This document shows, piece after piece, positions 48,012-63,669 of a DNA stretch of 64,000 bases. The DNA is from Sulfurovum sp. (GTDB taxonomy: Bacteria > Campylobacterota > Campylobacteria > Campylobacterales > Sulfurovaceae), in assembly GCA_027068485.1 (NCBI GenBank), contig JAMOSB010000033.1, positions 27,512 to 91,511 of the forward strand, written 5' to 3'. The position numbers were made by a program, and so were the translations under genes. The notes below the pieces were generated by a model, which worked only from the letters and a program-made list of their open reading frames with translations, had not been told where the DNA came from and did no database searches. Position 1 is the stretch's first letter. Each line of letters begins with the position of its first letter.

Positions 48012-48608
48012 TTGAAAATAGTAGATAAGAAGGCTCTAAAAAGAGAAGCGATCATCCAAGGAGCATTACAACTCTTCTCCTCCAATGGATTTCACAGAAC
48101 CACTATCCCCGATATCGCAACCAAGTTACAGATGAGTGTTGGCAATCTCTACAACTACTTCTCCTCTAAAGATGTCTTGGCAAAAGAGATTATCAAATAC
48201 ACCTCAGAGGTGCTAGGAGATGAGATACGCACGGTCAATATGCTAGAGATCTCCTCGCGTGAGAAGATTCATAAGATTGTTACGATTTACTTTAGCATGG
48301 CAAAAGAGAAGCCTGAGATGATTGAGTATTTTTTGCGTGTCTATCTCTCTCACCGTGAGGTTTTTAAGGATGGGTGTGAGGGGATGACCTGTGTGAGTGG
48401 CTTTATCACTGAGATTATGATCTTTTTTGATGATGGGGTGAGTAGTGGAGAGCTTCGCAATCAAGACTTCTTCTCTGCGTTTGGACTCTTTATGGGCTAT
48501 CTTGGGGGGATGGTATTTCTCGAAGGGGAGGCGATACTCCCTCGAAGCTTGGATGAGTATATCGAGGATATCTCACGCAATATCTACTACGCACTCAAGA
48601 GTGTATGA
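48012..48608 (+). CDS. TetR family transcriptional regulator
   Basis: KREAIIQGALQLFSSNGFHRTTIPDIATKLQMSVGNLYNYFSSKDVLAKEII HTH. Confidence 0.9.
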   Translation: MKIVDKKALKREAIIQGALQLFSSNGFHRTTIPDIATKLQMSVGNLYNYFSSKDVLAKEIIKYTSEVLGDEIRTVNMLEISSREKIHKIVTIYFSMAKEKPEMIEYFLRVYLSHREVFKDGCEGMTCVSGFITEIMIFFDDGVSSGELRNQDFFSAFGLFMGYLGGMVFLEGEAILPRSLDEYIEDISRNIYYALKSV

Positions 48609-49495
48609 TGTCAAAACTTACACTTGTTTGGGTTCAGTCCATCAGTTGTAATGGTAATGCACACTCTTTTCTCAATCATCCTGAGCTCTTTTCTATTCTC
48701 TCTCACTTTGAACTACTCTACCACCCTGTACTCGATACCCCCTATGGACTCACCGAATTAATCGAGAGTGAGATCCCTTGTGATATCTTGATCCTTGAGG
48801 GGTCTTTCAAGGCTGAGGGGGTTGTGAAGGTGGGGGTAGAGATACTTCCTGTGATTGAATCCTATGCAAAGCGGGCTGAGCATATCATCACCGCAGGGAC
48901 TTGTGCTACTTTTGGAGGGGTCTTTAAGCAGTATGACCCTACGCATATCACAGGGTTTTGTTTTGATGAGGAGGAGCGAGTGAGTCGCTATGACTCCTAC
49001 GCCTCTAAGTTGATCTCTCTACCAGGGTGTCCCATCCATCCCAAATGGCTCTCCTATGTCTTGATGATGTTGGCTCAAGGTATCTCTATCCCTCTTGACC
49101 ACCTTCATCGTCCTCAAGAACTCTATGGGATTACGGTGCATACAGGCTGTACACGCAATGAGTATTTTGAGTGGAAAGTCGATACCAAAGGGTGGGGACT
49201 CAAAGAGGGGTGTCTCTTCTATGAAAATGGCTGTCAAGCTCCCTATACCCGAGGCAGTTGCAATAAAATCCTCTGGAATGATATCAGCTCCAAGACAATC
49301 GTGGGGACTCCCTGCTTTGGGTGTACAGAGCCTAGCTTTCCCAAAACGGCCCTCTTTCATACCAAGACTAATATGGGGATCCCCGCCACAATGCCCTTAG
49401 GGGTGCCTCGCCGTGCCTACCTCACCGCTACAGGTATCGCCAAGAGCTTTAAGATCAAGAGGTTAGAGGAGAGGGTGGTGGAGTATGAGGTGTAA
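48605..49495 (+). CDS. cytosolic group-2-like [NiFe] hydrogenase small subunit
   Basis: No Tat signal; VWVQSISCNGNAHSF, ITAGTCATFGG, LPGCPIHPKW, GCLFYENGCQAPYTRGSC, TPCFGCTEPSFP. Confidence 0.85.
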   Translation: MMSKLTLVWVQSISCNGNAHSFLNHPELFSILSHFELLYHPVLDTPYGLTELIESEIPCDILILEGSFKAEGVVKVGVEILPVIESYAKRAEHIITAGTCATFGGVFKQYDPTHITGFCFDEEERVSRYDSYASKLISLPGCPIHPKWLSYVLMMLAQGISIPLDHLHRPQELYGITVHTGCTRNEYFEWKVDTKGWGLKEGCLFYENGCQAPYTRGSCNKILWNDISSKTIVGTPCFGCTEPSFPKTALFHTKTNMGIPATMPLGVPRRAYLTATGIAKSFKIKRLEERVVEYEV

Positions 49496-49516
49496 CTACC
49501 AAGAAGGATCGATAGG

Positions 49517-50809
49517 ATGCAGATAAAACAACTGATAGAGAAGATAGAGGGAGAGGCTGAGCTTGATTTCACACTCTCTCATGGGCGTGTGGAGGATGTC
49601 ACGATCAACTTTGGATTCTATCGTGGAATAGAGGAGATTTTGGTTGGGAAGCATCTTTTGGATGCGTTGGTGATTACCCCTCGGGTCTGTGGTATCTGTA
49701 ACCATGCACACCTTATCGCATCGGTACGAGCGATAGAGGATGGATACCAAAAAGCAGGGGTAGAGGTAGCGTTGAGCCCGAAGGCGAAAGGGATTCGTGA
49801 GTTTACACTATCGTGTGAACTGATACAAAACCATATGAAGTGGTTTTATTTGACGATTTTACCTCAGTTGGAGAGGCTTGTAGGAGCGGAAACAGGGGAG
49901 AACTATGCACTCAAAGCCTCCTATCTCTCCTCTACGATCACCAAAGCGTTGGCACTCTTTGCAGGGCAGTGGCCTCACTCTAGCTACGCGGTACCAGGTG
50001 GGGTGACTTGTGACCCCACCTATGTGGAGGTGATGCAGGCTCAAAGTCTGCTTGATGAGACGATACGCTTTTTTGAAGAGGTGGTGATTGGTATGCCGTT
50101 TGAATGCTATCTTGCGAGAGACAAAGCGTTGCATCTTCAAGAGATTGCAGGAGATTTTGGACGGCTCTTGGGGTTGATGGAGAGAGAAGGGATGGGAGAG
50201 GTAGGGCAGAGTCATGATCGTTTTATTGTCTTTGGTGAGGAGATCTTTTTTCGCTCAGGTAAATCGATGGCGACGACGGTCTCAGGGGTTGATGTGCGTT
50301 ATGTAGAGGAGGCGATACAGCAGGGGAGTTATGCCAAAGCGGTGAGCTACAAACAGCGACTCTATGAGGTCGGACCGCTTGCGCGTGCGATGGTCGCCAA
50401 AGAGCCGATGGTCAAGAGCCTCCATAAGTACTACAAAGACTCTCTACTGACACGGATCTTTTCGCGTGTTCATGAGGTGGTACGACTCTTGGACTATAGC
50501 AAAACCCTACTCCAAAACCTTAGACTCGATGAACCCTCCGCAACCCTCCCTACACTCCCTAAGCTAGATAGCCTAGAGGGGGTAGGGGTCGTTGAGGCAG
50601 CACGGGGATCCCTCATCCACCGTACGCGTGTCGTTGAGGGGCATATCACGCAGTATGATATTATCGTCCCGACACAGTGGAATCTCAGCCACGGTAATGC
50701 CCTTGAGCGGGGTATCGCAATCGAAGCGATGGTGGGAAGTGAGACGATAGAGAAGGCCTCTTTTATCTTCAAATCGTTTGATATCTGCTCTGTCTGTACA
50801 ACTCAGTAG
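49517..50809 (+). CDS. cytosolic group-2-like [NiFe] hydrogenase large subunit, no C-terminal extension
   Basis: L1 RVCGICNHAH; L2 DICSVCTTQ followed directly by stop. Confidence 0.87.
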   Translation: MQIKQLIEKIEGEAELDFTLSHGRVEDVTINFGFYRGIEEILVGKHLLDALVITPRVCGICNHAHLIASVRAIEDGYQKAGVEVALSPKAKGIREFTLSCELIQNHMKWFYLTILPQLERLVGAETGENYALKASYLSSTITKALALFAGQWPHSSYAVPGGVTCDPTYVEVMQAQSLLDETIRFFEEVVIGMPFECYLARDKALHLQEIAGDFGRLLGLMEREGMGEVGQSHDRFIVFGEEIFFRSGKSMATTVSGVDVRYVEEAIQQGSYAKAVSYKQRLYEVGPLARAMVAKEPMVKSLHKYYKDSLLTRIFSRVHEVVRLLDYSKTLLQNLRLDEPSATLPTLPKLDSLEGVGVVEAARGSLIHRTRVVEGHITQYDIIVPTQWNLSHGNALERGIAIEAMVGSETIEKASFIFKSFDICSVCTTQ

Positions 50810-50875: not shown

Positions 50876-50903
50876 AAATAAATGAATGAGTATTCATTTA
50901 TTT
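50876..50903. promoter_or_regulatory. perfect palindrome, candidate TetR operator 1
   Basis: AAATAAATGAAT-GAGT-ATTCATTTATTT upstream of hydA. Confidence 0.65.
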
Positions 50904-50925
50904 GTAAGTTTACTTTCCCTATGAT

Positions 50926-50941
50926 TTGAATAGTTATTCAA
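50926..50941. promoter_or_regulatory. perfect palindrome, candidate TetR operator 2
   Basis: TTGAATAGTTATTCAA, same TGAAT-N4-ATTCA arms. Confidence 0.6.
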
Positions 50942-50959: not shown

Positions 50960-52132
50960 ATGAGTATTGAAAAAACAGATAGCTCTTATGATCTATTGTA
51001 TAGATCGTTTAAAGAGCGGATTGCACAGTTGGAGACGCTACCTAAGATGGATGAGAGCAACTCTATTGAGCGTGCGATAGAGGAGAAGGGGTTTTCTCGA
51101 AGAGATTTTATGAAGTGGGCGGGGATGATGACAGCCGTACTCTCACTCCCCTCTAGCTTTACACCTCTTATGGCAGAGGCGATCAAGGTCGCCGATAGAC
51201 TCCCTATCGTATGGTTGCATATGGCAGAGTGTACGGGGTGTAGTGAGTCACTGCTTCGTTCAGCAGAACCGACGATTGATAGTCTGATCTTTGATTATAT
51301 CTCATTGGAGTATCATGAGACGCTTATGGCTGCTGCGGGGTGGCAAGCAGAGCAGAACCTTGAGGGAGCCATAGAGAAGTATAAGGGGAGATATATCCTT
51401 ATGGTTGAGGGGGGGATCCCTACAGGCAACGCAGGCGCTTATCTGACGATTGGTGGGCATGCCAAAAAAGGTAAAGATATCGCCTATGAAGCCTCAGAAC
51501 ATGCCGCAGCAATCTTTGCTATTGGGACTTGTTCGGCATTTGGTGGGGTACAAGCAGCTGTCCCCAACCCTACAGGAGCGGTGGGTCTTAGTGAAATCAC
51601 CCATAAACCTGTCATCAATGTACCAGGGTGTCCTCCTAGTGAGAAGAATATCGTAGGAACACTCCTACACTATATCCTCTATGGTACACTCCCCGCACTT
51701 GATGCCTACAACAGACCAAAATGGGCTTATCGTAACCGTATCCATGACCTCTGTGAACGACGCGGGCATTTTGATGCGGGTGAGTTTGTCGAACAGTTTG
51801 GAGATGCAGGTGCCAAAGAGGGATACTGTCTCTACAAGGTAGGGTGTAAAGGACCATATACCTTCAACAACTGCTCTAAAAATAAGTTCAACCAAGGTAC
51901 CTCATGGCCTGTTCAGGTTGGGTTTGGATGTATGGGATGTAGTGAACCTGACTTCTGGGATACTATGGGTGTTGTGGGAGAGCCTCTCTCCGAGAAGCTC
52001 TACAATACGACCTTTAGTGGGATGGGAGCAGATGCCACTGCGGATAAGATAGGGGTGACACTTCTGAGTGCCACAGTTGTAGGAATCGCCGCACACGCTG
52101 TGATCTCAACCATTAAAAAACCAAAAGAGTAG
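50960..52132 (+). CDS. hydA: uptake [NiFe] hydrogenase small subunit (Tat-exported)
   Basis: Tat motif SRRDFMKWAG; AECTGCSESLLR; C-terminal TM anchor. Confidence 0.95.
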   Translation: MSIEKTDSSYDLLYRSFKERIAQLETLPKMDESNSIERAIEEKGFSRRDFMKWAGMMTAVLSLPSSFTPLMAEAIKVADRLPIVWLHMAECTGCSESLLRSAEPTIDSLIFDYISLEYHETLMAAAGWQAEQNLEGAIEKYKGRYILMVEGGIPTGNAGAYLTIGGHAKKGKDIAYEASEHAAAIFAIGTCSAFGGVQAAVPNPTGAVGLSEITHKPVINVPGCPPSEKNIVGTLLHYILYGTLPALDAYNRPKWAYRNRIHDLCERRGHFDAGEFVEQFGDAGAKEGYCLYKVGCKGPYTFNNCSKNKFNQGTSWPVQVGFGCMGCSEPDFWDTMGVVGEPLSEKLYNTTFSGMGADATADKIGVTLLSATVVGIAAHAVISTIKKPKE

Positions 52133-52144
52133 AGAGGAGAGAAG

Positions 52145-53881
52145 ATGAGTAAAAGAGTAGTAGTAGATCCAATTACAAGAATAGAGGGACACCTTAGAGC
52201 AGAGGTGATTGTGGGAGATGATGGGGTCGTAGAGGATGCCTTTGTCTCCTCTACCTTATGGAGAGGATTAGAGGTGATTGCTAAGGGGAGAGATCCACGA
52301 AATGTACCATTGATTATGCAGAGGATTTGTGGGGTCTGTACCTACTCACACTACCTCAAAAGTACCATTGCGGTAGAAGATGCCCTAGGGATCAAGATAC
52401 CTCTCAATGCGGAGTTAGTGCGTACACTGATGAATGCTGCACTCTTCTTCCATGACCATGTGGTACACTTCTATCATCTTCATGGTGTGGATTGGGTTGA
52501 TATCGTCTCTGCGTTGAGTGCAGATGAGAAAAAAGCGAGTGAGTTGGCATTTAAATATAGTGACAACCCGATCGGTACAGGGGTCAATGAGCTGAAAAAA
52601 GTCAAAGAGACCGTAGCCAAATTTGCTAAGCATCCTCAAGGACTTGGACCCTTTGCCAATGCGTATTGGGGACATGGTACCTATAAGTTCACACCAGAGC
52701 AGAACCTTATTGCCCTCTCTCACTACCTCAAAGCCCTAGAGATGCAACGCATCGCAGCACAGCTTTTAGCGATTTTTGGTGGGAAACAACCTCACCCACA
52801 ATCACTCGTAGTCGGTGGTGTAACCTGTGTTATGGATATCTTAGATCCTTCGCGTATGGGAGAGTATCTCACCAAGTATAAGACAATGGCAAACTTTGTC
52901 AAAAATGCTTATGTAGCCGATATCAAAATGGCTGCGGAGATGTTCAAAGAGGAACCCTCTGTAGTCAAGCCTGTAGGGGTCAAAAACTTTATGGCATTTA
53001 GAGACTTTATGGTCGGTAGAGATCAGTATCTCTTTGATAGTGGATATATTGAAAATGCTGATTTGAGTAAGGTATTTGATATTAATGAAGACCTTATCAC
53101 GGAGGAGGCAACCCACTCATGGTATGCAGATGATGAGCCACTCCACCCCTATGATGGTAAAACCAATCCAAACTACACAGGGTTTGTAGAGGGGGAGAGT
53201 GTTGGACCTGATGGCGAGATGATTCATTCACAAAATATCGATCCAAAAGGAAAATATAGCTGGATTAAATCCCCTCGTTATGATGGTAAACCAATGGAGG
53301 TTGGACCTTTGGCATGTCTACTTGTCAGTTATGCTAGAGGTAATAAGCTGGTACAAGCGTCTGTCAATGGCTTCTTAAAAGAGACGGGACTCCCCGTCTC
53401 TGCACTCTTTACAACCCTAGGGCGTACCGCAGCGCGTGCATTGCAGTGTGAGATTATCGCAGACAATGCTATCCTTGCCTTTAATAACTTGATAGAGAAC
53501 CTAAAAGTCGATCAAGAGACCTGTGCTCCTTATGTCATCGATAAGGATAAGGAGTATAAAGGACGCGGGATTGGAGATGTGCCAAGAGGGATGCTTAGCC
53601 ACTGGATACGCATCAAAAATGGTGTCTGTGAAAACTACCAAGCGGTTGTCCCTAGTACATGGAATGCCTCTCCTGAAGATGCCAAAGGGATCAAAGGACC
53701 TTATGAAGCGGATCTGGTTGGGCTGAAGATACTCGATATCACACAACCCTTGGAGATTATCCGTATTATCCACTCGTATGATCCTTGTATCGCGTGTGCT
53801 GTGCATGTGATGGATACAAAGGGCAATAAGCTAAGTGAGTACAAAGTTGATCCTCTCTATGGGGGTGCATGTAATGTCTAA
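52145..53881 (+). CDS. hydB: uptake [NiFe] hydrogenase large subunit
   Basis: RICGVCTYSH; DPCIACAVH plus C-terminal extension. Confidence 0.96.
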   Translation: MSKRVVVDPITRIEGHLRAEVIVGDDGVVEDAFVSSTLWRGLEVIAKGRDPRNVPLIMQRICGVCTYSHYLKSTIAVEDALGIKIPLNAELVRTLMNAALFFHDHVVHFYHLHGVDWVDIVSALSADEKKASELAFKYSDNPIGTGVNELKKVKETVAKFAKHPQGLGPFANAYWGHGTYKFTPEQNLIALSHYLKALEMQRIAAQLLAIFGGKQPHPQSLVVGGVTCVMDILDPSRMGEYLTKYKTMANFVKNAYVADIKMAAEMFKEEPSVVKPVGVKNFMAFRDFMVGRDQYLFDSGYIENADLSKVFDINEDLITEEATHSWYADDEPLHPYDGKTNPNYTGFVEGESVGPDGEMIHSQNIDPKGKYSWIKSPRYDGKPMEVGPLACLLVSYARGNKLVQASVNGFLKETGLPVSALFTTLGRTAARALQCEIIADNAILAFNNLIENLKVDQETCAPYVIDKDKEYKGRGIGDVPRGMLSHWIRIKNGVCENYQAVVPSTWNASPEDAKGIKGPYEADLVGLKILDITQPLEIIRIIHSYDPCIACAVHVMDTKGNKLSEYKVDPLYGGACNV

Positions 53882-53890
53882 GGAGCTAAA

Positions 53891-54589
53891 ATGGAAAATG
53901 TAGATAAAAACGCCATTCACAATACAGAGATTGTTCAGGAGATGGAGTTTAGTGCAGGGTATCGATGGCAACATTGGATCCGTGCACTCTCGATTGTGGT
54001 ATTGACAGTTACAGGGTTCTATATTGCTGTTCCTTTTGTCTCTCCCATTCCCAATTCTGAGCCGACAAATTTTATGTATGCGCTCTTTAGAAGTTGGCAT
54101 ATTATTTTTGGATTTGTGATGACTTCGGTAGTCCTCTATAAGAGTTATACCTTTATTTTTAATTCAAAAAATAAGATAGAACGCGATGCCATTAAAGATA
54201 TCTTCAATCCTAAGGTGTGGCTACAGCAGATAGGGTACTATCTCTTTATTACCAAGCACCCAAAGCTGAGTGGGGTCTATAACCCTGTGCAGTTTATGGC
54301 ATATGCGGGTTTCTATATGATGATGTTTGTGTTAATTTTGACAGGATTTATCCTCTATGTTCATGTTTATCACGATGGACTTGCAGGGCTTCTATATGAT
54401 CCTATGTTACGCTTAGAGGTGATGATGGGGGGACTTGCAATGGTTCGAGAGATACACCATATTGTGATGTGGGGTGTGATCTTGTTTGTGGTAGGGCATG
54501 TCTATATGGCGATATTCAACGCCGTCTATGGCAAAGAGGGGGCGATGGATGCGATCTTCTCTGGGCTCAAATGGCATAAAAAGCATTAA
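53891..54589 (+). CDS. hydC: Ni/Fe-hydrogenase b-type cytochrome subunit
   Basis: Four-TM cytochrome b, RWQHWIRALSIVVL; REIHHIVMWGVILFVVGHVYMA. Confidence 0.93.
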   Translation: MENVDKNAIHNTEIVQEMEFSAGYRWQHWIRALSIVVLTVTGFYIAVPFVSPIPNSEPTNFMYALFRSWHIIFGFVMTSVVLYKSYTFIFNSKNKIERDAIKDIFNPKVWLQQIGYYLFITKHPKLSGVYNPVQFMAYAGFYMMMFVLILTGFILYVHVYHDGLAGLLYDPMLRLEVMMGGLAMVREIHHIVMWGVILFVVGHVYMAIFNAVYGKEGAMDAIFSGLKWHKKH

Positions 54590-54605
54590 GGTTTAAGTAG
54601 GAGGT

Positions 54606-54629
54606 GTTAGAGGGATTAGCTCCTCTAAC
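54606..54629 (+). terminator. hairpin after hydC
   Basis: GTTAGAGG-GATTAGCT-CCTCTAAC. Confidence 0.5.
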
Positions 54630-54644
54630 GCTTCACCTAGAGAC

Positions 54645-54838
54645 AAATACTAGTCACGAGAGAAAAGAAATTTTTATCTGTTATCCAAAACATGTAAGGT
54701 ATCTCCTCTTTTCTCTCCTTAGTAGTATTTATCAAGAGGGAAAATGGTAGTTTTTGATAATGTGTCCCTGTGTATAACCTCCTTAAAATTTACACAACTT
54801 TCCTTTCATTTTCCCTCTTCTCTCTTGATAGGTACTAC
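54645..54838. repeat. two overlapping inverted repeats in the hydC-hydD spacer
   Basis: IR1: AAATACTA..GAGAGAAAAGA / TCTTTTCTCTC..TAGTATTT (54645-54730). IR2: GTAGTATTTATCAAGAGGGAAAATG / CATTTTCCCTCTTCTCTCTTGATAGGTACTAC (54722-54838). Confidence 0.75.
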
Positions 54839-54878
54839 ACGATAGAGTGTCTTAGTGCATTGATATAAAAGGATATAT

Positions 54879-55442
54879 TTGAAAATTTTAATACTAGGTA
54901 TTGGTAATATTTTGTTTGGAGATGAGGGGATTGGACCACACTTGGCAAATCTCATTGAGGAGAAGTATCACTTTGGTTCTATAGCGCATGAGGTAGAGAT
55001 TATTGATGGGGGGACACTGGCTCAACGGCTGATTCCTATTATCACCGAGTATGATCGTATCCTTCTGATAGATTGTGTCAATGTAGAGGGGGGAGCTGTG
55101 GGGGATGTCTATGCCTTTGATTTTGACAAAGTACCTGACTTTATCACTTGGAATGGTTCGGCACATGAGGTGGAGATGCTTCAGACACTTCAGATGATTG
55201 AGATGATGGGGGATCTCCCCCCTGTGAAGATTGTCGGGGTGATTCCTCATGTCATTGGAGAGGATAGTACCTTTACGATGACCGAGGCGGTGGTAAATGC
55301 AAGTGAGACGATGGAGCGTGTGATTCTTGATGAGCTTAGAGGTATTGGTATCACGATAGAGGTGAAGGATGAATCACTCAAGATTACGGATGTGACCTCC
55401 ACGACCTATATCAAAGGAGTCACCTATGATATTGGAGTATAA
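54879..55442 (+). CDS. hydD: hydrogenase maturation protease
   Basis: ILGIGNILFGDEGIGPHLANLIEE; IDGGTLAQRLIPII. Confidence 0.93.
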   Translation: MKILILGIGNILFGDEGIGPHLANLIEEKYHFGSIAHEVEIIDGGTLAQRLIPIITEYDRILLIDCVNVEGGAVGDVYAFDFDKVPDFITWNGSAHEVEMLQTLQMIEMMGDLPPVKIVGVIPHVIGEDSTFTMTEAVVNASETMERVILDELRGIGITIEVKDESLKITDVTSTTYIKGVTYDIGV

Positions 55443-57048
55443 GCTTATCTACCCTGCCCATGCACGAGTCTATGAGAAGATATTTTTAGAGCAACTTCGT
55501 ACCTCAAGTCTCCAAGGAAACCTCTCTAGAGAGGGGCTTGAGTTGAGACTCTTTGTTGAGGCGGAGGAGCCTCAAGCCCTTGAAGCATTTGCGACAGATT
55601 TTGCGATGCGTCTCCCGCACTCACTCTTTTTGTACGGGACAGAGGCTAGACTTGTAGAGGAGATGCCTACGATACCCTATCCACTTGTAGAGGAGAAGAA
55701 GATATCACTTCCTCCCTGTCCTGCGTGTCTCAACTCCATTAAAGAGCGTTATGATATCTCTACGGCGTGTGACTGGTGTGGATACGCAGTAGAGGCAAGT
55801 AGTGGAGCGTATCAAGAGCAGTTTGAGCATACGGCACAGAAGATAGAGGAGGGGGCTATCGTAGAGCTCAATACCTTCTATGGTAAGTATTTTGTAGGAT
55901 GCCCCTCTGCACTGTGTAATGCGGTCTCTTTTGATATCTTGGCGTATGATCTTGCTACGGTGGAGAAGTATGCTACCGTAGAGTCCTATGAGTTGAATGC
56001 TTTGGCTTCACTAGAAAAACCTGCTATCAAGCTCAAGAAACGATTGCAGTTTACACGGGATTTTGAAGCAGTGGAGGCAGATTTGATACGCTTTCGCTTA
56101 CCCGATGATGCGATACTCTATCTCTTGATGGAGGCACTTCATCAGCGTGGGGTAGATATCATTTTTATGACCAAACAGAGAGTTCATGCACAAGAGCAAC
56201 TGCTCCTCACCCCTATCGTAGAGGAGCTTACTCCCCTAGAGGTGGTTGCCTCACCTAACCATACACTGATACTCAGTGGAGATAGAGGGGTGCCACCAAC
56301 GCCTCTCTTGATGCCTAAGCTCACTCCACAGATCGATGCATTTCATGCTATTATTGAGCAGTGGAACCTCTCTCAATCTGCTCAAACTATCGCAGGGGTC
56401 AACCTCGATAGAAGTGGGGTCAATATCGTGGTGCAAGGGGAGAAGTTTGGATTGATTGAGTATCTTGCTTTTGGGTGTCACTTTGAGTCGATTGAGGAGA
56501 TATTTCAGAAGATCTCTCTGAGTGATGAGGTGGGAGAGAAGTTGGTAGAGAACTACCAAACACACTTTTCGCAACACTATGAAGCGATTAAATCGATGCA
56601 GCTAGAGCAGTGGGATGGACTCTATGGACTTTGGGGTGTGATCGCCATTATACTAGGCTTTACCTCTACCGATAATCTCCAAGAGGGTGCAAAGCGTATA
56701 GAGGAGAATGCCTTGAACTTCCTAGGAGAGAGAGGACCTCGCATCGACTATAAGCTTGTCAACCTAGAGGGCAAACCCTCTTTTGATCCACTGATGACCA
56801 TCCGTACAGCGATGAGCTTCAAGCTTGCGGGGGTTGATCCACTAGGGTTGTCCTATGGTGTGATTGAGAGCTTTTTGGAGTTTGTCACCAATGAGCTTGA
56901 TGGACTCAAGGAGAGTATGGCAATCGATGCGGTGGTGGTGAGAGGGTCACTCCTTGCCAACCGACGCATTTTTGTGAAGATAAGTCAAGAGGTGTCGATG
57001 AATCATCGACTCTATTTTAGTCAAAGTGTAGAGAGGGTAGCTGTATGA
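55426..57048 (+). CDS. hydE: HydE-like hydrogenase-associated protein
   Basis: Follows hydD as in Wolinella/Helicobacter hydABCDE; Zn-finger-like CPACLNSIKERYDISTACDWC. Confidence 0.7.
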   Translation: MILEYKLIYPAHARVYEKIFLEQLRTSSLQGNLSREGLELRLFVEAEEPQALEAFATDFAMRLPHSLFLYGTEARLVEEMPTIPYPLVEEKKISLPPCPACLNSIKERYDISTACDWCGYAVEASSGAYQEQFEHTAQKIEEGAIVELNTFYGKYFVGCPSALCNAVSFDILAYDLATVEKYATVESYELNALASLEKPAIKLKKRLQFTRDFEAVEADLIRFRLPDDAILYLLMEALHQRGVDIIFMTKQRVHAQEQLLLTPIVEELTPLEVVASPNHTLILSGDRGVPPTPLLMPKLTPQIDAFHAIIEQWNLSQSAQTIAGVNLDRSGVNIVVQGEKFGLIEYLAFGCHFESIEEIFQKISLSDEVGEKLVENYQTHFSQHYEAIKSMQLEQWDGLYGLWGVIAIILGFTSTDNLQEGAKRIEENALNFLGERGPRIDYKLVNLEGKPSFDPLMTIRTAMSFKLAGVDPLGLSYGVIESFLEFVTNELDGLKESMAIDAVVVRGSLLANRRIFVKISQEVSMNHRLYFSQSVERVAV

Positions 57049-57506
57049 TACAACGCTATGGAGTGATGATGGTATGGATGGGGGCAATGCTCTTTGGTAA
57101 CCCCTCTCTACACCATGAGTTTACCCCACACGATACCAACAATACGCTAGGTGTACGAAGTGTTATCCACCTCCCTACACGCGTAGATGAGTCATCGTAT
57201 GAAGTAGAGATATTTGTAGGTAAACCGATGTACCTAGATAGCTGTAACCGCTATCGTCTCAAGGGGGATATCGCACAACAAGATGGGGCGATAGTGGTCT
57301 CCCATATCGGTGCGTTAGAGGCGTTGAGCCACAAGGTGTGTCACGGGGGCAAAAGGGATCGTTTTGTCTCTCTTTTTCGTTCTGAGGAGCTCTTTAGAGC
57401 TTATGAGAGTGAGAGGGCTATCGTGATCTACCATCCACGATGGTATGAGGTACGCTATCGTATCTTGAAGCAAGCACAACAGACCCAAAAAGCGATCGTG
57501 AGATAA
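57045..57506 (+). CDS. ecotin-like periplasmic serine protease inhibitor
   Basis: Signal-like N-terminus; YEVEIFVGKPMYLDSCNRYRLKGDI, KVCHGGKRDRFV, AIVIYHPRWYEVRYRILKA-like end, resembling ecotin [22 protein letters not shown] / IVVYTPDNVDVKYRVWKA. Confidence 0.75.
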   Translation: MIQRYGVMMVWMGAMLFGNPSLHHEFTPHDTNNTLGVRSVIHLPTRVDESSYEVEIFVGKPMYLDSCNRYRLKGDIAQQDGAIVVSHIGALEALSHKVCHGGKRDRFVSLFRSEELFRAYESERAIVIYHPRWYEVRYRILKQAQQTQKAIVR

Positions 57507-57512
57507 GTTAGG

Positions 57513-59741
57513 GTGAGAGAGCAGAGCTATCATGTCACTATCAATGGTAGGGTACAAGGGGTAGGGTTTCGTCCCTTTATCTATCGGTTAGCACAATCAT
57601 TCAATCTTTATGGTTCGATTAGCAATAGTACCACTGGGGTTGAAATCTTTATTAATAGCAACTTGCCTCAAGTAGAACAATTCCTTGATGCCATAAGAGC
57701 AAATGCTCCCACCCTTTCGACGATTGATACGCTGAGGTATCAAGTGGTAGCCTATCGAGAGTTTCATGACTTTAGGATTGTCCAGACTTCTAATGATGGG
57801 GAGATTAGTATCAATATCCCCCCTGATATTACGCTGTGTGATGCGTGTAGAGAGGAACTCTTTGACCCCACCAATCGACGATATGGATATCCATTTATCA
57901 CCTGTACCAATTGTGGTGTACGCTACTCTATTATCTACGATTTGCCGTATGATAGAGTCCATACCTCTATGCGTCTGTTTCCGATGTGTGATGCGTGTCA
58001 AGAGGAGTACACTAATCCACTCAATCGACGATACCATACGCAGCCCATAGGGTGTTGGGAGTGTGGTGTAACGCTCAAACTGATGGGGAAAGGTATCTCT
58101 ACACCCATAGAGAACCCAACCATAGAGGAGATTGTGCAACTACTCTACGATGGAAATATTGTAGCGATCAAAGGGGTAGGGGGGTATCATCTGGTCTGTG
58201 ATGCGACCAATAAAGAGGCGATTGCTAGATTAAGAGAGCGAAAACAGCGTCCAACCAAACCCTTTGCGGTGATGACCAAAGATATCGAGATGGCAAAATC
58301 TATGGCATATATAGATCCCAAAGAGGAGGCGTTGTTGACCTCCAAAGAGCGACCCATCGTGCTATTGAGAGCTAAAAAAAGCGATGAGTCAATCGCTCCC
58401 AATCTCTCTTATATCGGTATACTCTTGCCCTATACACCGCTACATCTCTTGATACTAGAGCAGTTCAATCGTCCACTCATCGCAACGAGTGCAAATCTCT
58501 CAGGTGAACCCATTGCGACGACTTATGAGGGTATCCAAAAGCTCTCTAGGGTATATGACTATGTGGTTGAACACACACGAGAGATTGTGAATGGGTGTGA
58601 TGATAGTGTCGTGATGGTTGTCCAAAATCAACTCGTTACACTACGGTTGGCGAGGGGCTATACCCCTATCGAGATAAAACTACCCGTTACTTTGGATAAG
58701 AGGACTATCGCAGTAGGGGCAAATCAGAAAAATACCGTAGCGATGGGGTGGGATAATCGTGTGGTACTCTCTCCTTATATTGGAGATTTGGAGGGGATTG
58801 ATTCGATTGCCTATTTCAAAGATACGATTGAGAGGCTTCAACGCATCTATCGATTTACCCCAGAGGTGGTTGTCTCTGATAGGCATCCCGCGTATGAGAG
58901 TACAAAGTATGCTCAAAGTCTTGGGCTACCTCACAGCATGGTACAGCACCACTATGCACATATTTTGGGGGTGATGGCAGAACGAGGGATTACCCAAACG
59001 GTTTTTGGGGTAGCCTTTGATGGGACAGGTTTGGGAGAGGATGGTCATCTATGGGGTGGAGAGTTTCTACTCTGTGACTATACGCACTATAGACGCGTGG
59101 CACATCTAGACTATTTTCGCCTTTTGGGTGCGACCAAAGCGATTAAAGAACCACGAAGGGTGGCGTTGAGTCTACTGTTTGAGATCTATGGAGAGAAGGT
59201 ATTTGAGCTAGACACCCCAACGGTTCAAGCTTTTTCAACTAGTCAGATGAAGAGTCTCTACCTGATGTGGGAAAAGGGGTTGAATGCACCCTTGAGTTCC
59301 TCTATGGGACGACTCTTTGATGCAGTGGCTTCTCTGAGAGGTATCTGTCAGGTGATGCACTTTGAGGGGGAGAGTGGTATGCTCCTTGAAGCCTATTACG
59401 ATAGCCGTGTGGTAGGGGATTACCCTTTTGAGTATCACGAGGGGAGGATAGACCTCTATCCTATGCTTGTGGAGTTGGTAGCTGAGTCTGATACGACTAT
59501 TGCGGTATCGAAGTTTTTTCATACCTTAGTGCAGGTCATTGTAGCGGTGTATGCTCCTTACCAGAGTTTTCCTTTGGTACTTACGGGAGGGGTATTTCAA
59601 AATAGGGTACTTTTGAGCTTGGTATTGGAGCAGTTTCCTCAAGCACTTATCCCTCATACCATACCACCCAATGATGGGGGGATAGCGTTGGGGCAGATAG
59701 TCTACCAAGCCTCCTCTTCCAAAAGCTCTCTTTGTCTTTAA
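57513..59741 (+). CDS. hypF: carbamoyltransferase HypF
   Basis: Acylphosphatase VTINGRVQGVGFRPFIYRLA; two CxxC zinc fingers; YrdC and Kae1-like domains. Confidence 0.97.
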   Translation: MREQSYHVTINGRVQGVGFRPFIYRLAQSFNLYGSISNSTTGVEIFINSNLPQVEQFLDAIRANAPTLSTIDTLRYQVVAYREFHDFRIVQTSNDGEISINIPPDITLCDACREELFDPTNRRYGYPFITCTNCGVRYSIIYDLPYDRVHTSMRLFPMCDACQEEYTNPLNRRYHTQPIGCWECGVTLKLMGKGISTPIENPTIEEIVQLLYDGNIVAIKGVGGYHLVCDATNKEAIARLRERKQRPTKPFAVMTKDIEMAKSMAYIDPKEEALLTSKERPIVLLRAKKSDESIAPNLSYIGILLPYTPLHLLILEQFNRPLIATSANLSGEPIATTYEGIQKLSRVYDYVVEHTREIVNGCDDSVVMVVQNQLVTLRLARGYTPIEIKLPVTLDKRTIAVGANQKNTVAMGWDNRVVLSPYIGDLEGIDSIAYFKDTIERLQRIYRFTPEVVVSDRHPAYESTKYAQSLGLPHSMVQHHYAHILGVMAERGITQTVFGVAFDGTGLGEDGHLWGGEFLLCDYTHYRRVAHLDYFRLLGATKAIKEPRRVALSLLFEIYGEKVFELDTPTVQAFSTSQMKSLYLMWEKGLNAPLSSSMGRLFDAVASLRGICQVMHFEGESGMLLEAYYDSRVVGDYPFEYHEGRIDLYPMLVELVAESDTTIAVSKFFHTLVQVIVAVYAPYQSFPLVLTGGVFQNRVLLSLVLEQFPQALIPHTIPPNDGGIALGQIVYQASSSKSSLCL

Positions 59742-59797
59742 AATAGTCAAAAAAAGAGGCTATTTAATATAAGCTTCATCTTGAAAAGATACAATAA

Positions 59798-59811
59798 TGA
59801 ATAATCATTCA
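59798..59811. promoter_or_regulatory. TGAAT-N4-ATTCA palindrome, candidate TetR operator 3
   Basis: TGAATAATCATTCA immediately upstream of the transporter-hypB operon. Confidence 0.55.
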
Positions 59812-59827: not shown

Positions 59828-60469
59828 ATGGAGTTATCCCTTTTGGTTATCTTCTGGTATGGCATATTACACGCATTTGGTCCTGATCATCTCACTGCAA
59901 TAGCAGACTTTTCTATCGGTAAAGATAAGCAAAAAACCCTACTCATTACAACCCTGTTTGCCATAGGACATGGGGTGAGTCTTTTTCTCTTTGCCAAACT
60001 CTTACAGACCATCGAGATTAGTGATGAGGTGTTGGGGTATGGGGATCTTATCTCTGCTACGGTGATTATCGTGATGGGACTCTATCTACTCTTTTTGGTC
60101 TCTACCGATCGCATTCAGCTCAAAACCCACTGGCATGAGGGCAAAGAGCATACCCATATCTGGTTTGGTAAGTCGCATGACCATCAGGAGAGTGTAGCCC
60201 AAAGCTCCTCCTTTACGATGGGGCTACTGATGGGAGCAGGAGGGGTTAGAGGGATGCTTATCACCCTTGGAGCAGTAGGGAGTGGTTGTGTCGATCTCTG
60301 GATGGTAGGAGCATTTACCGCAGGGGTGATGCTGATTTTTGTAGGGTTTGGTCTGGTCATACTCTACCTCAATCAACACCTCTTGGGGAGTGTCAAAAAT
60401 GTGCGATACGCCTTTAGTGTTGCAGGGGTTGTCTCACTCATCGTGGGAACCAATATTTTATTAGGATAG
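59828..60469 (+). CDS. nickel/cobalt transporter-like membrane protein
   Basis: HAFGPDHLTAIADF; His-rich loop HWHEGKEHTHIWFGKSHDH; next to hypB. Confidence 0.75.
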   Translation: MELSLLVIFWYGILHAFGPDHLTAIADFSIGKDKQKTLLITTLFAIGHGVSLFLFAKLLQTIEISDEVLGYGDLISATVIIVMGLYLLFLVSTDRIQLKTHWHEGKEHTHIWFGKSHDHQESVAQSSSFTMGLLMGAGGVRGMLITLGAVGSGCVDLWMVGAFTAGVMLIFVGFGLVILYLNQHLLGSVKNVRYAFSVAGVVSLIVGTNILLG

Positions 60470-60478
60470 GAGAAGATA

Positions 60479-61252
60479 ATGTGTCAAGATTGCGGATGTA
60501 GTATACGAGGAACAGAACACGAACATAGCCATACCGATGAGCAGAGCCATAGCCACCAACATGCTCACGAACACCTGCACCATAACCCACAGCTCAATGA
60601 TGCCAAGACGATCTCTGTCATACAGAAGATACTCGACAAGAACGACCATGAAGCCGATCACAATCGCAGTCACCTTGAAGCCAAGGGGGTACTAGGTATC
60701 AATCTGATGTCAAGTCCTGGTTCAGGGAAGACGACGCTTTTGGAGTATTTGGCAGATGTGGCACCATTTCGTTTTGGTGTGATTGAGGGGGATTTGGAGA
60801 CTGAGCGAGATGCCAACCGCCTCAGAGCCAAAGGGATACCTGCCCAACAGATACAGACAGGTACGGCGTGTCACTTAGATGCCTTTATGGTACATAAGGG
60901 GCTACATGGTATGCCACTAGATACACTAGATGTCTGCTTTGTTGAGAATGTTGGTAACCTCGTCTGCCCCGCAAGCTACGATGTCGGCACCCATCTCAAT
61001 ATCGTACTGGTCTCTGTCCCTGAGGGGGAGGATAAGATCGCCAAATACCCTGTGATGTTTCGTCAAGCTGATTTGATACTTATCACCAAGACGGATCTAC
61101 TTCCACACTTTAAGTATGATATGGCTCAAGAGAGGGCCGATGCGAGACGCATCAAACCCAATGTCGATATCTTAGAGGTCAATATCAATGATATCGACTC
61201 GATCAAAGCGGTCTCTGACTGGATAGAGTTCAAACGAAAGATGAGGGGGTAG
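60479..61252 (+). CDS. hypB: hydrogenase nickel incorporation GTPase HypB
   Basis: MCQDCGCS, His-rich N-terminus, SSPGSGKTTLLE P-loop. Confidence 0.97.
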   Translation: MCQDCGCSIRGTEHEHSHTDEQSHSHQHAHEHLHHNPQLNDAKTISVIQKILDKNDHEADHNRSHLEAKGVLGINLMSSPGSGKTTLLEYLADVAPFRFGVIEGDLETERDANRLRAKGIPAQQIQTGTACHLDAFMVHKGLHGMPLDTLDVCFVENVGNLVCPASYDVGTHLNIVLVSVPEGEDKIAKYPVMFRQADLILITKTDLLPHFKYDMAQERADARRIKPNVDILEVNINDIDSIKAVSDWIEFKRKMRG

Positions 61253-61253
61253 T

Positions 61254-61538
61254 ATGTGTCTATCGATACCAAGTAGAGTAGTCAATGTGAGTGAGGATAG
61301 GACAATGTGTCGAGTCGATACGATGGGAGTCCAACGCGATGCCAATCTGATGATGATGGCAGAAGAGTCGATTGAGGTAGGGGATTATGTCTTGTTGCAT
61401 ATTGGGTTTGTGATGAATAAGATTGATGAGGCAGAGGCGTTGGCATCGATTGAAACCTATCGTGAGATTTTGGAGCTGATGGATGAGGAGGAACGCCGTC
61501 AAGCCATTTTAGATGATGACCATTGTGAAAACAGATGA
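61254..61538 (+). CDS. hypC: hydrogenase assembly chaperone HypC
   Basis: MCLSIPSRVV; GDYVLLHIGFVMNKIDEAEA. Confidence 0.96.
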   Translation: MCLSIPSRVVNVSEDRTMCRVDTMGVQRDANLMMMAEESIEVGDYVLLHIGFVMNKIDEAEALASIETYREILELMDEEERRQAILDDDHCENR

Positions 61539-62680
61539 AAGCGTTAGAACTCAAAAATCTATATGATGATTTTCGTGATGGCAAGACGATCCAAGCCTAT
61601 GCCAAACGCATCGCAGCGGATGCTAAGAAGCTAAAGCGACCCATCAATATCATGGAGGTGTGTGGTGGGCATACCCATACGATTATGAAGTTTGGATTGC
61701 CACAGCTGTTGCCTGAGACGATCAACTTTATCCATGGTCCAGGGTGTCCTGTCTGTATCATGCCCAAAGAACGCATCGACCACGCCTATCTCTTGGCAAT
61801 GCAACCTGAGGTGATACTCGTCACCCTTGGAGATATGATTAAAGTCCCAGGGAGTCGAGGGAGTCTACAAGATGCCCGAGCCAAAGGGGCGGATGTACGG
61901 TTTGTCTACTCTCCTATGGAGTGTATCGCTATAGCCCAAGCCCACCCTGATAAAAAGATTATCTTTTTTGCGATAGGGTTTGAGACGACCACCCCGATGA
62001 GTGCGGTCTTGATCGATCAAGTGATAGCCCTCAATATCCCTAATATCCTCTTCCATATCAACCATGTCACCGTCCCTGAGGTGATGGTAGAGCTGATTGA
62101 TAGTCGTGATGTCCATGTCGATAGCTACAACAACCAGATCGACGCATTTTTGGGACCGAGTCATGTGAGTGTGATTAGTGGCTCTAAGATCTATGAGAAG
62201 TTCCCCAAAGCCTATGGTAGACCTGTGGTGGTGACAGGGTTTGAACCTGTCGATGCGATGGAGGGGATTAGTATGATTGTCAAGCAGTTCATTGAGGAGC
62301 GGTGTGAGCTAGAGATACAGTACAAACGGGTGGTTAGCTACGAGGGCAACCTCAAAGCACAAGCCCTTATCGAAAAATATTTTGAAAAAGTGAGTCTCTT
62401 TCGGTGGCGTGGATTAGGCAATGTACCTGATAGTGGATTGAAGTTGCGTGAGGCGTTTGATGCCTATAATGCAGAGGTCATCTACCGAGATATCTTACCC
62501 ATTGCTCAGATAGAGGATCACCAGCTCTGTATCTGTGGGGATATCTTGAGAGGGATAGCCAAGCCACCAGAGTGTACGATATTTGGAACAGCGTGCCGAC
62601 CCAATAGCCCCGTGGGGAGTTGTATGGTCAGCAGTGAAGGGGCGTGCAGTGCCTACTATAAATATGGAAACCTATTATGA
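61535..62680 (+). CDS. hypD: hydrogenase formation protein HypD
   Basis: IMEVCGGHTHTIMKFGL; FIHGPGCPVCIMP. Confidence 0.97.
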   Translation: MKALELKNLYDDFRDGKTIQAYAKRIAADAKKLKRPINIMEVCGGHTHTIMKFGLPQLLPETINFIHGPGCPVCIMPKERIDHAYLLAMQPEVILVTLGDMIKVPGSRGSLQDARAKGADVRFVYSPMECIAIAQAHPDKKIIFFAIGFETTTPMSAVLIDQVIALNIPNILFHINHVTVPEVMVELIDSRDVHVDSYNNQIDAFLGPSHVSVISGSKIYEKFPKAYGRPVVVTGFEPVDAMEGISMIVKQFIEERCELEIQYKRVVSYEGNLKAQALIEKYFEKVSLFRWRGLGNVPDSGLKLREAFDAYNAEVIYRDILPIAQIEDHQLCICGDILRGIAKPPECTIFGTACRPNSPVGSCMVSSEGACSAYYKYGNLL

Positions 62681-63669
62681 CAAAAACCGTAACCTTAGCC
62701 CACGGAAATGGTGGAGAAGAGAATAGTGAACTTATCTCAAAGATATTCTACAAACACTTTGCCAATGAGATACTCCAAAAGAGTGAAGATAGTGCCATCA
62801 TTGAGCAGGGCAGATTAGCGATGAGTACCGATAGCTTTACGGTAAGTCCGCTCTTTTTTAGTGGAGGGGATATCGGTAAGCTTGCAATCTGTGGTACCTG
62901 TAATGACTTGGCTATGATGGGTGCCAAACCCAAGTACCTCACCTGTAGTGTCATTATCGAAGAGGGGTTTGAGACACGAGAGCTAGAGAAGATTGTACGA
63001 AGTATGAAAAAAGAGCTAGCGATCAATGGGGCAATAGTGGTGAGTGGAGATACCAAAGTCGTCCCCAAAGGGGCGGTGGACAAGCTCTTTATCAACACCA
63101 CAGGGATAGGAGAGGTGGCGTATCAGGGGATTAGCTCTCACCATCTCCAAGAGGGGATGCGTATCTTGGTGAGCCGTGATGTCGGAAGCCACGGGGCGAC
63201 CATCTTCTCTGCACGAGAGGGGATAGCACTAGAGAGTGACCTACAAACAGACTGTGCCTCCCTCTACCCTGAAGTCAAGGCATTGATAGATAGTGGTATC
63301 GAGATTATCGCCCTGCGTGATGCCACCCGTGGAGGAGTCTCCGCCGTACTCAATGAGTGGGCAAACGCCTCCTCGGTCTGTATCGAGATAGAGGAGGAGC
63401 GGATACCCGTCCAAGAGAGTGTCCAAGGTATCTGCGAGATGTTGGGGTTTGAAGCGATGGATTTAGCCAATGAGGGGACATTTGTCTTGGCTGTGCCTAA
63501 GTGTGATGAGGTGCGGGCTTTAGAGGTTTTGAAGCAGACCCATCAGAGTGCTGAGTCTATCGGTCGTGTCTCTATGGTATATGAAGGCAAGGTTGTCTTA
63601 AAGAGTTCTTGGGGAACAAAGCGATTTTTGGACTTGCCTACTGGGGAGTTGTTGCCTAGGATTTGTTAA
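62677..63669 (+). CDS. hypE: hydrogenase expression/formation protein HypE
   Basis: LAHGNGGEENSELI; MSTDSFTVSPLFFSGGDIG; C-terminal PRIC. Confidence 0.97.
   Translation: MTKTVTLAHGNGGEENSELISKIFYKHFANEILQKSEDSAIIEQGRLAMSTDSFTVSPLFFSGGDIGKLAICGTCNDLAMMGAKPKYLTCSVIIEEGFETRELEKIVRSMKKELAINGAIVVSGDTKVVPKGAVDKLFINTTGIGEVAYQGISSHHLQEGMRILVSRDVGSHGATIFSAREGIALESDLQTDCASLYPEVKALIDSGIEIIALRDATRGGVSAVLNEWANASSVCIEIEEERIPVQESVQGICEMLGFEAMDLANEGTFVLAVPKCDEVRALEVLKQTHQSAESIGRVSMVYEGKVVLKSSWGTKRFLDLPTGELLPRIC

Follow-up and report, generated by a model that had tools for sequence, protein, structure and literature searches.

Organization of the TetR-hydrogenase module

The 64,000-nt stretch of Sulfurovum sp. 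DNA analysed here (the window) carries a gene for a TetR-family regulator joined to the genes for a cytosolic [NiFe] hydrogenase pair, which raises the question of whether H2 can be sensed by such a pair and signalled directly through a repressor rather than through a histidine kinase. The TetR reading frame begins at a TTG codon (48012) behind the sequence AAAAGGA and ends in a TGA codon at 48606-48608. The first ATG of the small subunit is located at 48605-48607, creating a 4-nt ATGA overlap with the TetR frame, and a second ATG is present at 48608; the small subunit stop codon ends at 49495 and is followed 21 nt later by the large subunit ATG at 49517. The regulator contains a TetR_N domain (PF00440, E = 2.5e-14), the small subunit Oxidored_q6 and NiFe_hyd_SSU_C domains, and the large subunit a NiFeSe_Hases domain. 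A Tat signal is present on HydA (50960) and none was detected on the cytosolic small subunit. The regulator and both subunits constitute a single cytosolic module, followed by a promoter, the exported membrane uptake hydrogenase operon and then nicO-hypBCDE (Table 1). These coordinates and domains confirm the initial annotation as to the overlap, the 21-nt gap, the missing export signal and the uptake operon downstream. The genome contains one large-subunit gene of each kind, cytosolic and uptake; the single other, weak match is probably NuoD.

Two genes of the uptake operon were noted in passing. The 540-aa product encoded at 55426-57048 of the window has no Pfam match and only faint similarity to HypF, and is found behind hydD in most relatives, while an ecotin-like protease inhibitor is encoded at 57045-57506, within the hydrogenase operon and upstream of hypF.

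Table 1. Features of the TetR-hydrogenase module and its predicted regulon in the window.
Feature	Position	Strand	Basis
TetR/AcrR-family regulator, 198 aa, with C122 and C127 invariant; predicted to repress the hydrogenase/nickel regulon	48012..48608	+	
Small subunit of the cytosolic [NiFe] hydrogenase (HupS/HuaS of Campylobacterota; published as group 2d)	48605..49495	+	
Cytosolic [NiFe] hydrogenase large subunit, 430 aa; four Ni-binding Cys; no C-terminal processing peptide	49517..50809	+	
Distal predicted operator TGAATGAGTATTCA, 44 bp from the proximal site	50883..50896	.	
-35-like element TGTAAGTTTA, hydA promoter; matches the TTTAAGTT element of relatives	50903..50912	+	sequence, alignment of relatives
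-10 box TATGAT, hydA promoter	50920..50925	+	sequence
Proximal predicted operator TGAATAGTTATTCA, at the expected transcription start	50927..50940	.	
hydABCD membrane uptake operon: Tat-exported small subunit, large subunit, cytochrome b, maturation protease	50960..55442	+	
Operon remainder: 540-aa protein with faint HypF similarity, ecotin-like protein, HypF	55426..59741	+	
-10 box TACAAT, nicO promoter	59790..59795	+	sequence
Predicted operator TGAATAATCATTCA before nicO	59798..59811	.	
NicO-like nickel transporter (weak Pfam match) and hypBCDE	59828..63669	+	

Classification of the cytosolic hydrogenase

The initial annotation likened the pair to the regulatory hydrogenases of group 2b and proposed phylogenetic placement as a check. 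The comparison did not hold, as the enzyme falls in neither group 2a nor group 2b. The Campylobacterota sequences formed a separate clade (100% support) in the trees of both subunits, apart from HoxBC/HupUV and from 2a. Membership in group 2b is ruled out by this placement together with four sequence marks. His65 of the large subunit is present in 98 of 101 sequences, where all three 2b references have Gln; replacement of a conserved His near the active site by Gln is a feature of group 2b (PMC5665086). In the small subunit, all 108 sequences have Lys230 at a position occupied by Cys in 2b, and thus lack a four-Cys medial [4Fe-4S] cluster. The small subunits are also short (285-305 aa, versus 336-347 aa in 2b), the C-terminal extension being absent. 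Group 2a was likewise rejected, since the sequences lie outside the 2a clade and their large subunit has no C-terminal peptide: nothing extends past position 430 in any of the 101 alignment rows (seven of which are incomplete at the end), and the protein ends at CxxCTTH/Q, as do HoxC and HupV but not the large subunits of 2a and group 1.

The four Ni-binding cysteines, the catalytic Glu and the catalytic Arg are invariant. The proximal cluster motif is CxGN in most small subunits, with Asn in 100 of 108 and Asp or Cys in four each (CNGN in the window), the medial cluster has three Cys ligands with Lys at the fourth place, and the distal cluster has one His and three Cys; the medial and distal ligands are all conserved in the window protein. 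The surface at the distal cluster, HxGCxRNEYFE, is almost invariant. The structural model of the large subunit (pLDDT 90) matches [NiFe] large subunits, and the closest solved relative, by best PDB match, is the group 2a enzyme Huc of M. smegmatis. Huc and other 2a enzymes share the CxGN motif and the three-Cys medial cluster, but are catalytic, with longer large subunits bearing a C-terminal peptide and with different gene neighbours.

The Campylobacterota enzyme has been filed as group 2d, under the names HupSL or HuaSL (PMC12286921, PMC5401914), and the group 2 enzymes of Sulfurimonas have been labelled 2b by some (PMC7952632). Our placement outside 2a and 2b, in trees with references from 2a, 2b and group 1, corresponds to the 2d of the literature. 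Group 2d, which includes hydrogenase III of Aquifex aeolicus, is also cytosolic, and the function of its Campylobacterota members is disputed, with a ferredoxin role and a sensing role both put forward as proposals (PMC4584964, PMC10052474). The strict TetR partner, operator and regulon described below are not described for group 2d in the papers found.

Several variants were observed among the relatives. Small subunits of one family (f15; L059:5470-6354, L060:5362-6225, L061:5979-6860) have CxGC where the others mostly have Asn, and this fourth proximal Cys is a natural variant for testing the role of the cluster. One genome of the same family encodes a further signal-less [NiFe] pair (L062:2446-4959), with the large subunit gene before the small and no C-terminal peptide, which branches near group 1. 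Elsewhere, an 822-aa protein (L197:3188-5656) joins a hydrogenase small subunit to a pyridine nucleotide-disulphide oxidoreductase and a BFD-like [2Fe-2S] domain, and 800-aa frames with this fusion occur in many genomes of the same genus.

Conservation of the module in the Campylobacterota

The association of TetR with this hydrogenase is not due to chance. Among 80 named loci drawn from one-genome-per-species contigs, all 76 with room upstream have TetR directly upstream of the small subunit, and in 39 of another 40 loci, extracted for closer examination, the order TetR-small-large is kept. Across the genomes of 150 relatives, presence of the small subunit coincides with presence of a close TetR, which has a full-length identity of 58% or more (52% in one damaged copy); the pairing spans 10 families and 18 genera. 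In one genome (G111) both are present but apart; in another (G126) TetR is followed by a small subunit that is truncated by the end of the contig; and a third (G072) has an extra TetR copy without a hydrogenase pair. Two seeming exceptions in the module-free set (L206 and L209) have a large subunit at the contig edge, indicating that the module was cut by the assembly and that these are not true exceptions. Of the three proteins, TetR shows the highest conservation, with a median pairwise identity of 64% versus 52% and 44% for the hydrogenase subunits. The initial annotation called this architecture atypical. It does differ from the textbook kinase relay, but it is the rule for the copies of this hydrogenase found in the phylum and not an oddity of one locus.

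The module was also found on plasmids of Sulfurovum mangrovi (395 kb; L081:14362-17186) and Sulfurimonas paralvinellae (49.8 kb; NZ_CP041407.1, H42), and can therefore move together with hydrogenase genes. TetR matches on plasmids outside the Campylobacterota reach only about 22-33% identity.

A conserved palindrome and its predicted regulon

The palindrome TGAATRNNYATTCA occurs at exactly four places in the 1.73-Mb genome: twice before hydA (50883-50896 and 50927-50940), once before nicO-hypBCDE (59798-59811), and once immediately upstream of hypA, following a TATAAT box. No copy of the reversed pattern, used as a control, occurs in the genome. An exact copy of the core TGAATNNNNATTCA is found upstream of hydA in 72 of 93 regions, against 0.16 expected, and upstream of nicO in all five regions available from relatives; it is absent upstream of hydB (0/84 regions), hypF (0/53) and the small subunit (0/109). 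Double sites in relatives show a spacing of 45 bp in 17 cases. The promoter ahead of the proximal site has the TTTAAGTT element, which we take to be the Campylobacterota form of the sigma-70 promoter, and a -10 box that the site abuts on its downstream side, the position to be expected of a repressor.

Allowing up to one mismatch, a site is present upstream of hydA in 78 of 85 module-bearing cases (2.6 expected) and in none of 23 module-free ones (0.4 expected). Two lineages of hydA show the same division: in that of the window, 12 of 15 regions have the site with the module and 0 of 12 without, and in the other 66 of 70 and 0 of 11, respectively. The site thus follows TetR and not the type of hydrogenase regulated. 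Genomes with the module have a mean of 2.58 sites, compared to 0.47 in those without (controls, 0.45 and 0.53), and in relatives 15 of a further 20 sites looked at stand before nicO, hypA, hypB, hypE, cbiM or hydA. A chance palindrome is ruled out by the shuffles, the reversed pattern and the module-free genomes. Binding of the module TetR to the palindrome as a repressor is strongly indicated, because the site appears in none of the module-free hydA regions checked and in more than 90% of the others, and its predicted control of the hydrogenase/nickel regulon is, on comparative sequence evidence, nearly certain. The initial suggestion that output passes through TetR is accordingly well supported, by the presence of the palindrome at uptake, nickel and maturation genes and by its tracking of the module; that H2 acts through the hydrogenase is a part we only infer. 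No earlier description of the operator or the regulon was found in the literature searched, which consisted mostly of open-access papers.

The TetR protein and the search for a sensor kinase

The model of the regulator (pLDDT 90) combines the TetR_N helix-turn-helix with a TetR fold and matches TetR structures in the PDB. In its helix-turn-helix domain, its all-helical ligand domain and the predicted palindromic site over the promoter start it resembles other TetR/AcrR repressors, from which it differs in an invariant pair of cysteines in the ligand domain and in its proposed input, a partner hydrogenase instead of a small ligand. C122 and C127 are present in all 105 TetR sequences and lie in the ligand-binding domain, within a loop that is modelled with less certainty; for them, a function in redox or metal sensing is plausible. 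All but one of the TetR2 paralogues (41-48% identity) do not have these cysteines at the corresponding positions, yet a CxxxxC at a shifted place is present in five, indicating that a cysteine pair is not unique to the module TetRs, and the comparison is at most suggestive of a special role. In several genomes, TetR2 genes (L092-L101) are close to other hydrogenase genes. A TGAAT palindrome immediately precedes some of these TetR2 genes, and the two related regulators may therefore share a type of operator.

The view that no kinase of the HupT/HoxJ type is present was upheld for the whole genome: C. necator HoxJ has no full-length counterpart, matching only in its C-terminal kinase part, and HoxA matches only in its receiver domain. 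The genome has 27 HATPase_c matches, which leaves room for an unrelated kinase.

A model for H2-responsive repression and its alternatives

We consider it likely that the three genes encode an H2-responsive one-component regulator, in which the pair senses H2 and TetR then leaves the hydrogenase/nickel regulon. The near-constant TetR partner and the predicted site at hydrogenase and nickel genes indicate that the pair is probably an H2 sensor with a direct repressor, not a kinase relay. TetR would sit on TGAATRNNYATTCA at the transcription starts of hydABCD, nicO-hyp and hypA, a step that is computationally near certain, and would jointly repress the uptake hydrogenase, nickel import and maturation. 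The cytosolic pair would serve TetR as an H2 detector and not as a bulk catalyst, and H2 turnover would alter TetR, within a complex or by electron transfer, so that it comes off the DNA. More speculatively, the switch may be a redox change at C122/C127, with electrons supplied by the small subunit's distal FeS cluster; that a [NiFe] hydrogenase passes H2 electrons directly to DNA-bound TetR through this Cys pair, kinase-free and throughout the Campylobacterota, is a tentative proposal that we hold to be rather less probable than its opposite. With H2 present, hydrogenase and nickel genes would be switched on with no histidine kinase involved. Like HupUV/HoxBC, the module has a soluble [NiFe] heterodimer without export signal, a large subunit without C-terminal peptide, a position beside the gene of a proposed regulator and control, here predicted, of uptake hydrogenase genes. 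It differs in its separate clade, in having His and not Gln beside the first CxxC, in its three-Cys medial cluster and missing small-subunit tail, and in its proposed output, a one-component TetR repressor in place of the HoxJ/HupT kinase and the NtrC-type activator HoxA/HupR.

In favour of an H2 sensor are the large subunit, unprocessed like HoxC/HupV and unlike 2a and group 1, the second small-subunit match in each of the 37 module-bearing genomes that are at least 95% complete, the gene linkage, the regulon with sites tracking the module, the repressor geometry and the lack of full-length HoxJ and HoxA. In A. butzleri, H2 raises hynAB transcripts and lowers those of huaSL (PMC12286921); the rise is in line with release of a repressor on hyn, while the fall is not explained by this model, as the operon mostly lacks the site. 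We also count for a sensor that soluble H2 uptake was not detected in S. denitrificans (PMC4584964). Against it, the membrane hydrogenase (hydB) of S. multivorans is constitutive and not raised by H2, and hupL is nearly silent (PMC5357620); moreover, every cluster and active-site ligand needed for catalysis is present, and the Cys pair may have a different function, related to sulfide or metal.

An alternative to which we give a minor but real chance is that TetR controls the regulon but reads another signal (sulfide or persulfide, a metal, redox) through its Cys pair, the hydrogenase being a catalyst, e.g., of ferredoxin reduction for the reverse TCA cycle. A ferredoxin role has been proposed in print (PMC5401914, PMC4584964), hydrogenase activity of S. 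denitrificans drops with thiosulfate (PMC6682613), and the full catalytic and FeS ligand set and the constitutive hydB of S. multivorans agree with it. This reading does not account for a TetR and a hydrogenase that are practically never apart, for the exclusion of the module's own operon from the regulon at almost every locus, which a sensor would lead one to expect, for the second hydrogenase in all complete module-bearing genomes or for the unprocessed large subunit. A NikR-like nickel sensor is unlikely, as nickel import and a nickel enzyme are under one site and would move the same way. An indirect effect of the pair on TetR through a soluble pool (reduced ferredoxin, thiols), with no direct contact, would suit the electron relay complete to the distal cluster, but the strict gene pairing and frequent TetR-stop/small-subunit-start overlap favour a matched protein pair, as does the almost invariant distal-cluster surface, and we regard it as improbable. 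That TetR is a repressor of the adjacent hupSL operon alone, an idea raised briefly for S. multivorans, is very improbable: gene order and the near absence of hupL transcripts (PMC5357620) are compatible with it, but the palindrome stands before hydA, nicO and hyp genes, and before the module's own TetR in only 3 of 103 loci.

Implications

A TetR gene beside hupSL had been noted in S. multivorans, where it was thought to repress hupSL and a missing H2 sensor was suggested (PMC5357620); what is new here is the conserved palindrome and the hydrogenase/nickel regulon tied to the module. The module bears on the description of that well-studied member of the Campylobacterota as lacking an H2 sensor. 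The function of group 2d has been argued to be that of a sensor or of a ferredoxin reductase, and the sensor reading gains support from the TetR partner, the operator and the regulon. To our knowledge, H2 sensing through a one-component repressor would be the first of its kind. If it is true, the module would provide a compact H2-responsive genetic switch.
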